Positions 27,655 to 64,000 of a stretch of 64,000 nt of DNA are shown here, one piece after another. The stretch is from Alphaproteobacteria bacterium (GTDB lineage: Bacteria; Pseudomonadota; Alphaproteobacteria; Ferrovibrionales; Ferrovibrionaceae): contig CANJGB010000009.1 in the NCBI GenBank assembly GCA_947473805.1, forward strand, positions 1 through 64,000, written 5' to 3'. The notes under the pieces were generated by a model. The model was not told where the DNA came from and did no database searches. It saw nothing but the letters and a program-made list of their open reading frames with translations. Position numbers and translations under genes: made by a program. Positions within the stretch are counted from its first letter, which is position 1. The number at the start of each line of letters is the position of its first letter.

Positions 27655-27727
27655 CCACTCCATCGGAAATCCAGTCCGACATCGCAGTCCACAGGGACTG
27701 CCAGAGGGGCCCGGCCTGGCGCGACAA

Positions 27728-61061: not shown

Positions 61062-61077
61062 TGGCACGGCTCTTGCT
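61062..61077 (+). promoter_or_regulatory. Sigma-54 (RpoN) -24/-12 promoter of nasT
   Basis: TGGCACGGCTCTTGCT matches the sigma-54 consensus TGGCACG-N4-TTGCW exactly, with GG and GC separated by 10 bases. Transcription should start near 61088. GCACC half-sites at 60974, 61025 and 61039 are possible remnants of NtrC-like sites. Confidence 0.75.
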
Positions 61078-61114: not shown

Positions 61115-61702
61115 TTGAGTGGCCTGCGCATTCTCCTGGTGGACGAGAACCCCGACCGTGCCGCATGGCTGGACGAGGCGCTGCGCGGCCACGGCTACGA
61201 CCTTGTGGCGCAGGTATTGCCCAACATGCTGACGGCGGCCAAGGTCCGCGACACGTCGCCGGACGTCATCATCGTCGATATCGAATCGCCGAGCCGCGAC
61301 ACCATCGAGAGCATGCGCCAGATCAATGCCGAGCAGCCGCGGCCGATCGTCATGTTCGTCGACCAGTCGGACGAGGGAAACATCCAGCAGGCCATGCAGG
61401 CAGGCGTTTCCGCCTACATCATCGACGGGCTGGACCCCAAGCGGGTGAAGCAGATCCTCGACGTCGCCATCGCCCGGTTCCGCGAATTCCAGGCGTTGCG
61501 CGACGAACTGAAGAAGACCAAGGACACCCTCGCCGACCGCAAGCTGATCGACCGCGCCAAGGCGATCCTGATGCGCGAGCGCGGCCTGACCGAGGAGGCC
61601 GCGCATGCCGCGCTGCAGCGCCTGGCCATGGACCGGCAGCAGCGGCTGGGCGAAGTGGCCGAGGCGCTTATCGCCTTTGCCGGCGTGCTGAAGAAAAAAT
61701 AG
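61115..61702 (+). CDS. nasT: ANTAR-domain response regulator NasT (antiterminator)
   Basis: 195 residues from TTG 61115. An upstream ATG at 61058 lies inside or before the sigma-54 promoter, so it should not be in the transcript. A receiver-like domain (RILLVDENPDRAAWL...VDIESPSRD) is followed by a coiled linker and a C-terminal ANTAR RNA-binding domain (about 135-190; LIDRAKAILMRERGLTEEAAHAALQR). NasT-type proteins bind paired hexaloop hairpins in nitrate-assimilation leaders and prevent termination. Exactly such a leader follows before nrtA. The NasS sensor that usually restrains NasT is not in the window. Confidence 0.88.
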   Translation: MSGLRILLVDENPDRAAWLDEALRGHGYDLVAQVLPNMLTAAKVRDTSPDVIIVDIESPSRDTIESMRQINAEQPRPIVMFVDQSDEGNIQQAMQAGVSAYIIDGLDPKRVKQILDVAIARFREFQALRDELKKTKDTLADRKLIDRAKAILMRERGLTEEAAHAALQRLAMDRQQRLGEVAEALIAFAGVLKKK

Positions 61703-61820
61703 GCCGCTGCACAGGGTGAAAGCATAACCGCCCCTTTTTTGTGCACTGCAATATCTGGCCTGAAATTTAGACGCCCGATTAACTTATTGAAAAATATCAA
61801 CTAACCCGCACATCGGCGAC

Positions 61821-61836
61821 TGGCACGGTTACTGCT
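61821..61836 (+). promoter_or_regulatory. Sigma-54 (RpoN) -24/-12 promoter of the nrt operon
   Basis: TGGCACGGTTACTGCT, preceded by C, keeps the -24 TGGCACG, the 10-base GG-to-GC distance, and TGCT at -12. The predicted transcript start is near 61847, just before the first leader hairpin at 61848. Confidence 0.72.
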
Positions 61837-61847
61837 TAGTTAAGTTT

Positions 61848-61918
61848 GTGCGGCGCAATGGCGCGTCGTGCGGCGGAACCCCAGCGGTTCCAGAAATTGA
61901 ATTCGGACAATGGCGTCC
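61848..61918 (+). promoter_or_regulatory. ANTAR-responsive RNA leader, two AATGGC hexaloop hairpins
   Basis: P1: a 9-bp stem (61848-61856 with 61863-61871, including G-T pairs) closing the hexaloop AATGGC (61857-61862). P2: GGAC/GTCC (61905-61908, 61915-61918) closing an identical hexaloop AATGGC (61909-61914). ANTAR targets are pairs of hexaloops with A at position 1 and G at position 4, which both satisfy. A GGAACC/GGTTCC hairpin lies between them (61875-61891). Confidence 0.75.
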
Positions 61919-61959
61919 AGCGATGCTGCCTTTTGGCAGTGGTTGCGGACGCCTTTTTT
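61912..61959 (+). terminator. Attenuator (intrinsic terminator) overlapping leader hairpin P2
   Basis: GGCGTCC (61912-61918) pairs with GGACGCC (61947-61953), with an inner CTGCC/GGCAG stem-loop, followed by TTTTTT. Its 5' arm is the loop end and 3' arm of P2, so P2 and the terminator exclude each other. It stops transcription 40 bases before nrtA unless antiterminated. Confidence 0.85.
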
Positions 61960-61998: not shown

Positions 61999-63327
61999 AT
62001 GAGCAAGCCGGGCGACATGGTGCTGAACAAGGGCGTGGGGTTTAACCGTCGGAGCGTTTTGAAGGGTGGCGCGGGCGCACTGGCGCTGCTGGCCGCGACA
62101 CGGGCGCAATTCCCGTCGGGTGCGTTTGCGCAGGCCGCGGGGCCCGAGGTCAAGGGTACCACGCTGGGCTATATCGCGCTGACCGACGCCTCGCCGCTGA
62201 TCATCGCGCAGGAAAAGGGCCTGTTCGCGAAGTACGGCCTGACCGAGATGAACATCGCCAAGCAGGCCTCGTGGGGCGCCACGCGCGACAATATCGAACT
62301 GGGCGCGGGCAGCGGCGGCATTGACGGCGCCCACATCCTGACGCCGATGCCCTACCTGATCAGCACCGGCAAGATCACCAAGGGCAACGTAAAGATCCCG
62401 ATGTCGATGCTGGCGCGACTCAACACCAACGGCCAGTCGATCTCGGTCTCCAAGACGTACGCCAACATGGGCGTGACCACCAACGCCAAGACCCTCGGCG
62501 CCGCCTTCAAGAAGGCCAAGGCGGACGGCAAGGAAATCAAGTGCGCGGTGACCTTTCCCGGCGGCACCCACGACATGTGGATGCGCTACTGGCTGGCCGC
62601 GAACGGCATCGATCCGGAGAAGGACGTCTCGACCATCACCGTGCCGCCGCCGCAGATGGTGGCCAACATGAAGGTCAACACCATGGAGGCCTTCTGCGTC
62701 GGCGAGCCGTGGAACTCCCAGCTCGTCCACCAGGGTATCGGCTTCACCGCGCTGGTGACCGGCGAGTTGTGGAAGGACCACCCTGAAAAGTCGCTGAGCA
62801 TCCGCGCCGACTGGGTGGAGAAGAACCCGAAGGCGACGAAGGCCATCATCATGGCCGTCCAGGAAGCGCAAATGTGGTCGGACAAGCCGGAGAACAAGAA
62901 GGAACTCTGCACCATCGTCGGCGGCCGCGACTGGTTCAAGGTGCCGGTCGAGGACATTCTCGACCGCCAGAGCGGCGAGATCGACTACGGCGACGCCGGC
63001 CGGAAGGTGAAGGTGGGTCTCGACAGCCCGCTGGTCATGAAGTTCTGGCGTGACTTCGCGTCCTACCCGTACCAGAGCCACGACCTGTGGTTCCTGACCG
63101 AGAACATTCGCTGGGGCTACCTGCCGGCCGACACCGACACCAAGGCACTGATTGCCCAGGTGAACCGCGAGGACCTGTGGCGCGATGCGGCGAAGTCGCT
63201 GGGCGTCGCCGCGGCCGAGATCCCGACCTCAACCTCGCGCGGCAAGGAAACCTTCTTCGACGGCAAGGTCTTCGATCCGGCCAACCCTGCCGCCTACCTG
63301 AAAAGCCTGGGCATTACCCGCGTCTAG
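61999..63327 (+). CDS. nrtA: Nitrate ABC transporter substrate-binding protein NrtA
   Basis: 442 residues. A twin-arginine signal (FNRRSVLKGG, Arg17-Arg18) precedes a CmpA/NrtA-type binding domain: LGYIALTDASPLIIAQEKGLF, AHILTPMPYLIS, CAVTFPGGTHDMWMRYWLAANG. It presents nitrate (or nitrite/cyanate in relatives) to the NrtB/C transporter. The start ATG 61999 has GGAGAG upstream and lies beyond the attenuator, so expression depends on read-through. Followed by nrtB after 14 bases. Confidence 0.93.
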   Translation: MSKPGDMVLNKGVGFNRRSVLKGGAGALALLAATRAQFPSGAFAQAAGPEVKGTTLGYIALTDASPLIIAQEKGLFAKYGLTEMNIAKQASWGATRDNIELGAGSGGIDGAHILTPMPYLISTGKITKGNVKIPMSMLARLNTNGQSISVSKTYANMGVTTNAKTLGAAFKKAKADGKEIKCAVTFPGGTHDMWMRYWLAANGIDPEKDVSTITVPPPQMVANMKVNTMEAFCVGEPWNSQLVHQGIGFTALVTGELWKDHPEKSLSIRADWVEKNPKATKAIIMAVQEAQMWSDKPENKKELCTIVGGRDWFKVPVEDILDRQSGEIDYGDAGRKVKVGLDSPLVMKFWRDFASYPYQSHDLWFLTENIRWGYLPADTDTKALIAQVNREDLWRDAAKSLGVAAAEIPTSTSRGKETFFDGKVFDPANPAAYLKSLGITRV

Positions 63328-63341
63328 AGACGGAGCTTCGC

Positions 63342-64000
63342 ATGACGATCAAGGCAGATACTTTCGCCAAGTCCGGCCTGGGCGAAGGCCTGCTTCCCGC
63401 CAGCCTCGTCCCCCGGCTTGTCGCCGGGGGCAAGGCGGCGGCGGCGCGGGTGGTCCCCCCGCTACTATTCCTCGCCCTCCTGCTCGCGATCTGGGAGATC
63501 GCCTGTTCGCGCGCCGGCTCGCCGCTGCCGCCGCCGTCAAAGGTGGTCAGTGACACCTGGACACTGATTGTCGATCCGTTCTTCGACAAGGGCGGCATGA
63601 ACAAGGGCCTGTTCTGGCACCTGGCGTCGAGCCTGAAGCGCGTCGCCATGGGCTTCTCCATCGCCGCCGTCGTGGGTATCGCGCTGGGCGTGCTGGTCGG
63701 CCAGTCGACCTTGGCCTTCCGCGGTCTGGACCCGATTTTCCAGGTGTTTCGCACCGTGCCGCCGCTGGCCTGGCTGCCGCTGTCGCTCGCCGCGCTCAGG
63801 CAGGCGGAACCTTCGGCAATCTTCGTCATCGCCATCACGGCGATCTGGCCGATCATCCTGAACACCGCAGTCGGCATCCGGAACATTCCGCAGGACTACC
63901 GCAACATCTCACGCGTGCTGCAGCTCAATGGCGCCGAATATTTCTTCAAGATCATGCTGCCGGCGACGGTGCCGTTCATGTTCACGGGCCTGAAGATCGG
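63342..64000 (+). CDS. nrtB: Nitrate ABC transporter permease NrtB (3'-truncated by window edge)
   Basis: The first ~219 residues of a permease, starting at ATG 63342 (GGAG 10 bases upstream). A hydrophobic helix LLFLALLLAIWEIACS is followed by the family segment SLKRVAMGFSIAAVVGIALGVLVG, then FRTVPPLAWLPLSLAA and VGIRNIPQDYRNISRVLQLNGAEYFFKIMLPATVPFMFTGL, the NrtB/SsuC-type coupling loop. It continues beyond base 64000. No stop codon is seen in frame. It should be followed by the ATPase gene nrtC. Confidence 0.92.
   Translation, partial: MTIKADTFAKSGLGEGLLPASLVPRLVAGGKAAAARVVPPLLFLALLLAIWEIACSRAGSPLPPPSKVVSDTWTLIVDPFFDKGGMNKGLFWHLASSLKRVAMGFSIAAVVGIALGVLVGQSTLAFRGLDPIFQVFRTVPPLAWLPLSLAALRQAEPSAIFVIAITAIWPIILNTAVGIRNIPQDYRNISRVLQLNGAEYFFKIMLPATVPFMFTGLKI

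Follow-up and report, generated by a model that had tools for sequence, protein, structure and literature searches.

Gene context of the leader

The window, by which we mean the whole 64-kb stretch of DNA that was analysed, ends inside a nitrate operon preceded by nasT and by a structured leader (Table 1). Beyond the window, the operon continues after nrtB with a nasS-like gene (C9:64219-65478), nrtD, nirB and nasA. As in NasS-NasT systems, nasT is encoded with the nitrate operon. The nrtA product clusters with cyanobacterial NrtA in the tree. The original prediction had placed an ANTAR protein directly upstream of the leader. Its Pfam domains confirm a receiver-ANTAR protein, and the search of the 3.3-Mb genome (assembly around 95% complete) gave no other ANTAR protein. 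The start codon of nasT is probably TTG 61115, since both the relatives and the sigma-54 motif just upstream favour it and a start at ATG 61058 would make the gene overlap the promoter.

Table 1. Features of the nasT-nrtA region in the window
Feature	Position	Strand	Basis
Sigma-54 promoter motif TGGCACGGCTCTTGC before nasT	61062-61076	+	GG-N10-GC element
nasT, receiver-ANTAR antiterminator	61115-61702	+	PF03861, 65 bits; PF00072, 47 bits
TTTTGTGCAnTGCA-like motif	61734-61751	+	seen by eye in several relatives upstream of the nrtA promoter
Sigma-54 promoter motif TGGCACGGTTACTGC of the nrtA operon	61821-61835	+	consensus match; also before orthologous leaders
P1 hairpin	61847-61872	+	folding; covariation in 11 leaders
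Linker hairpin GGAACC-CCAGC-GGTTCC, between P1 and P2	61875-61891	+	folding
P2 hairpin GGAC-AATGGC-GTCC, putative antiterminator	61905-61918	+	folding
Intrinsic terminator with T6	61912-61959	+	folding, z = -5.95
nrtA, nitrate-binding protein, twin-arginine-type signal	61999-63327	+	PF13379, 344 bits
nrtB, nitrate permease (continues beyond the window)	63342-64000	+	TIGR01183, 325.8 bits

The two sigma-54 motifs are nearly identical, an element similar to the nasT-side one is found at the same place in most of the family relatives, and the genome has a sigma-54 gene. Transcription of the nrtA operon is predicted to start around 61847, i.e. at the foot of P1. The TTTTGTGCAnTGCA-like motif lies about 70-85 nt 5' of the sigma-54 promoter of the operon and is a candidate site for NtrC or another activator. 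A promoter and terminator scanner, whose scope is sigma-70 promoters and terminators with short stems and loops, found neither the sigma-54 promoter nor the terminator. Since it is blind to both elements, we located them by pattern and folding.

Structure of the leader

P1 has a stem of 10 bp, 4 of them G-U, and the hexaloop AATGGC (61857-61862). The same hexaloop (61909-61914) is found in P2, where 61905-61908 pair with 61915-61918. The outer stem of the terminator consists of 7 bp (61912-61918 with 61947-61953), the inner stem lies within 61920-61946, and a TTTTTT tract (61954-61959) closes the structure. The positions 61912-61918 are common to P2, as the end of its loop and its 3' arm, and to the 5' arm of the terminator. 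Thus the leader shows the features of the dual-hexaloop motif: both loops have A at the first and G at the fourth position (A1/G4), and P2 overlaps and excludes the terminator.

The original prediction had described these elements at the same coordinates, and the identical loops, the T6 terminator and the shared stretch of 61912-61918 all agree exactly with what we found. Its claim that P2 and the terminator are mutually exclusive is likewise borne out, both by the overlap and by the folding of the two states. The predicted distance of 38 bases between the hairpins is correct for a 4-bp core of P1, and the full 10-bp stem leaves a gap of 32 nt. The leader was also called compact, which has to be corrected, because this gap is long and contains an additional hairpin (61875-61891) that had gone unmentioned. 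The 4-bp stem of P2, part of the reason for that word, is the rule in the family and no peculiarity.

The folding z-score was -3.6 for the whole leader and -5.95 for the terminator alone. The state with the terminator has a folding energy of -54.1 kcal/mol versus -48.1 kcal/mol when P2 is forced, around 6 kcal/mol in favour of the terminator, and the P2 hairpin alone is weak (-5.5 kcal/mol). When the growing transcript was folded, P2 formed first, yielded to other pairing, formed again and was displaced once the last bases of the terminator emerged.

The full motif, i.e. two A1/G4 hexaloop hairpins with an overlapping terminator, occurs once in the window; the mean over 40 dinucleotide-shuffled windows was 0.025, and none of 3000 shuffles of the nasT-nrtA intergenic region contained it. 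A further A1/G4 hexaloop abuts P2 (61893-61904, GAA-ATTGAA-TTC); its 3-bp stem is too weak and it is probably a chance occurrence.

At its own thresholds Rfam gave no match on the leader, and no general ANTAR family matched it. The sub-threshold matches to U4, rpfG and narK were discarded as chance, or as having only the promoter-like stretch in common. Elsewhere in the window, a terC RNA (RF03067) matched above its gathering score at 27667-27722 on the minus strand (58.9 bits). We also ran a covariance model of the family hairpins over the genome, and no second convincing target was found; the further matches that were checked were coding-like sequence with no terminator. As the genome has a single ANTAR protein and no second convincing target, it appears to hold one NasT and one leader.

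Conservation in the family

The family sample comprised 18 genomes, 13 of them with NasT (that of the window and 12 others), and in all 13 the leader is placed between nasT and the nitrate operon. Covariation was analysed in a loop-anchored alignment of the 11 distinct leader sequences. In P1, 7 of 9 pairs had changes on both sides. There were 21 compensated cells compared with 5.5 in shuffles (0 of 500 shuffles reached 21), a count somewhat biased toward pairing by the choice of P1, for which the longest hexaloop stem 5' of P2 was taken. The covariation score collapsed on sliding the pairing.

In the loop of P1 neither A1 nor G4 ever varies. The same holds for G4 of P2, and its A1 has a single exception, in G004. 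The whole P2 hairpin is identical in 11 of the 13 leaders and its stem GGAC/GTCC in all 13. This invariance is expected, as the stretch would be needed by the terminator as well as by the hairpin that binds the protein. The alignment of homologous leaders, put forward as a check of the original prediction, agrees with it for the kept loops and the compensated P1, and the invariant P2 stem gives no covariation signal within the family. In more distant leaders the P2 stem and the terminator arm change jointly (GAAC, TGGC, CAGC, AGGC, CGGC), which can serve as an illustration only, since these sites were selected for pairing.

The linker between P1 and P2

If the linker hairpin is skipped, about 14-15 unpaired nucleotides remain between P1 and P2 in the window. 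In EutV leaders the linker has 5-12 nt, one of 14 nt cuts the induction drastically and 20 additional nucleotides abolish antitermination in vitro (PMC3369931, PMC8934654); a curation of actinobacterial ANTAR leaders allowed 2-25 nt (PMC8164766). The 32 nt of the window fall outside both ranges, which do not imply a requirement for NasT leaders.

Within the family, the linker has 8-10 nt in 4 genomes (3 distinct sequences: G015, G017, and G016 with G007, which are identical) and 31-63 nt in the others. The short linkers are unstructured. By folding, the linker of all 7 long-linker leaders with two hexaloops is a single outer helix that leaves 5-14 bases unpaired. In five sister sequences the tip of this element, CCT-CCCC-AGG, is invariant and 3 of 14 pairs show a compensatory change. 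Against shuffles, the numbers of exterior unpaired bases in the long linkers were not significant, and the energies were modestly lower (z between -0.9 and -2.5). Since these tests are modest, it is only tentatively that we propose the intervening hairpin as a bridge over the gap of 31-63 nt, leaving about 5-14 unpaired bases. Such a bridged distance would be near the 8-10 nt of the short-linker sisters and around the EutV limit.

The position of the middle hairpin is also where a third NasT-type hexaloop hairpin is found in sphingomonads and in two family genomes (G001 and G004, with a third A1/G4 hexaloop hairpin within the linker). In sphingomonad leaders, 37 of 41 sites had three R1/G4 hexaloop hairpins compared with 9 of 4100 shuffles. 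These three-hexaloop leaders lie before the nitrate operon (L065:10595-10740, L060, L075 and other sphingomonads; also L017 and L021), and we found no description of a three-hairpin ANTAR leader in the literature cited here. In Paracoccus, the hairpins HI and HII were placed 137 and 91 bp before nasA (PMC5424462), thus wide spacing may also occur outside this family.

One genus holds orthologous leaders with linkers of either 8-10 nt or 53-63 nt, the latter structured, and its NasT proteins are around 73-76% identical to that of the window. This contrast is a natural experiment on the distance permitted between ANTAR hairpins, for which the lengthening of EutV leaders had revealed a strict limit.

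The nasS-like gene behind the leader

In 74 of the 80 loci compared, the nasS-like gene directly follows nasT, before any leader, at a median distance of 5 nt (measured to the first aligned residue). Among the exceptions are the window and its relatives in the family, which have the gene after the leader, and a gammaproteobacterial MAG (L040) with a similar arrangement. The product of C9:64219-65478 is an NrtA-like binding-protein paralogue that falls between the NasS and the NrtA/NrtC types in the tree, a placement that is not decisive.

From its sequence and context, this gene is probably the NasS sensor. It might instead encode a regulatory domain for the transporter, comparable to the C-terminal part of NrtC in cyanobacteria, and indeed the NrtC C-terminal domains match the protein nearly as well as NrtA does (218 versus 226 bits) and the gene sits between nrtB and nrtD. 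However, the protein has no evident signal peptide, the genome search returned no other NasS candidate, and the gene tracks nasT: each of the 13 nasT-bearing family genomes has it, and the 5 that lack nasT do not. Furthermore, one relative (G012) keeps nasT, leader, nasS-like gene and nirB together although the transporter genes are absent, which disfavours a stand-alone NrtC C-terminal domain, and in G001 and G004 its relative directly follows the leader. We therefore regard an NrtC-like role as unlikely; if it were true, the feedback described below would fail and the switch itself would stand.

If the gene is NasS, its position after the leader means that NasT would promote the production of the protein that inhibits it. 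This predicts a negative feedback that the usual nasTS-first order lacks. A lineage that combines a helix-bridged linker with a sensor gene controlled by the very switch it regulates is conceivable, somewhat short of an even chance in our judgement.

Probable antitermination by NasT

Taking together the promoter motif, the two hairpins, the exclusive terminator, the covariation of P1 and the only ANTAR protein with its apparently single leader, we estimate a probability of about 0.9 that the leader is a NasT-dependent transcription antitermination switch of the nitrate operon. The original prediction had drawn the control by NasT from ANTAR systems, and the sequence checks proposed with it speak for this reading. 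It is well supported that it belongs to a known kind, the NasT leaders of the dual-hexaloop ANTAR class, which can be compared with the leaders of NasT, NasR and EutV.

The switch would work as follows. When nitrogen is limiting, the sigma-54 RNA polymerase would initiate around 61847, probably together with NtrC, whose action on the nrtA promoter we infer. If there is no nitrate, NasS would hold NasT, P2 would be outcompeted, and the terminator would form and stop transcription around 61959. When nitrate or nitrite binds to NasS, NasT would be released, bind the two A1/G4 hexaloops and hold P2, blocking the outer 7 bp of the terminator, and the polymerase would read through into nrtA, nrtB, nasS, nrtD, nirB and nasA. 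The linker hairpin may bring the two loops effectively closer together. The binding of NasT and the control by nitrate through NasS are expected by analogy with the work on Paracoccus, Klebsiella and Enterococcus (PMC3795266, PMC5424462, PMC7496416, PMC3369931). In Paracoccus, NasT does bind the leader of nasA (PMC3795266), and a mutation of hairpin HI abolishes growth on nitrate (PMC5424462).

Several points count against the switch. The gap of 32 nt would be excessive by the standard of EutV, with its 5-12 nt, where extension abolishes activity. In the folding model P2 is weak and the terminator state is the better one by 6 kcal/mol, and P2, invariant in the family, shows no covariation of its pairing. 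Finally, in Paracoccus the HI mutation kills expression, whereas the HII mutation has little effect on expression with nitrate (PMC5424462), which by analogy may speak against a decisive P2. Together with the long structured linker, this last result would fit an antitermination in which NasT acts mainly via P1 and the linker hairpin as a recruitment site, P2 being secondary. We consider this improbable, because P2 is the most conserved element in the family and the length of the linker varies between 8 and 63 nt, with no structure in the short linkers. Less credible still is a plain terminator that ends the nasT transcripts or constitutively attenuates nrtA, with incidental hexaloops: it is strong and lies between two genes, and the shared stretch could be chance. 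However, the 11 distinct leaders differ in sequence and yet keep the loops and the P1 pairing, P2 does not vary, the intergenic shuffles never produced the local motif, and a promoter motif stands between nasT and the leader.

The mechanism of the NasT switch is already known, and therefore the locus is mainly a clean, well-documented further NasT leader, of comparative use and recognised by no Rfam family at threshold. It is ordinary in mechanism and mildly unusual in linker and wiring.

Comparison with known systems

In the ami system of Pseudomonas, AmiC, an inhibitor of the substrate-binding-protein type, and AmiR, an ANTAR protein, form a sensor pair, a parallel also noted in the literature, and amiC lies inside the controlled operon. 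The locus described here resembles it in having the probable inhibitor gene within the operon; unlike this locus, ami senses amides and has the ANTAR gene inside the operon as well.

Regarding the covariance search for an ANTAR motif, also proposed with the original prediction, the only relevant match in Rfam was P11 (RF00625) below threshold, with 27.5 bits against a gathering threshold of 70, so that by the rule of Rfam the leader is not a member of this family. Nevertheless, promoter, hairpins and terminator are arranged in the P11 consensus as they are in the leader. The alignment to the model covers the sigma-54 promoter, the P2 hexaloop hairpin and the terminator (61809-61953); P11 differs in its short linker. 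This family, named "Pseudomonas sRNA P11", itself resembles an ANTAR nas leader with sigma-54 promoter, hexaloop hairpins and terminator, and the P11 sRNA may therefore be the terminated leader transcript.

The EutV/EutW-controlled eut leaders and the general dual-hexaloop ANTAR motif (Ramesh et al. 2012, PMC3369931) share with the window two A1/G4 hexaloop hairpins, the second of which overlaps the terminator. However, the EutV system has a linker of 5-12 nt and is activated by phosphorylation via EutW, whereas the window has 32 nt with an inserted hairpin. The Klebsiella nasF leader with NasR is similar in its two-hairpin motif and in that an ANTAR protein responding to nitrate antiterminates a nitrate assimilation operon (PMC7496416); NasR senses nitrate in its own fused domain, whereas a separate sensor is expected here. 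The NasS-NasT leaders (Paracoccus denitrificans nasA, Bradyrhizobium nosR and nirA, and Azotobacter nas) have, like the window, nasT upstream, a noncoding leader bearing hairpins and nitrate assimilation genes behind it (PMC3795266, PMC5424462, PMC6759348). In those systems nasS lies beside nasT and before the leader, whereas here the nasS-like gene belongs to the operon behind the switch.
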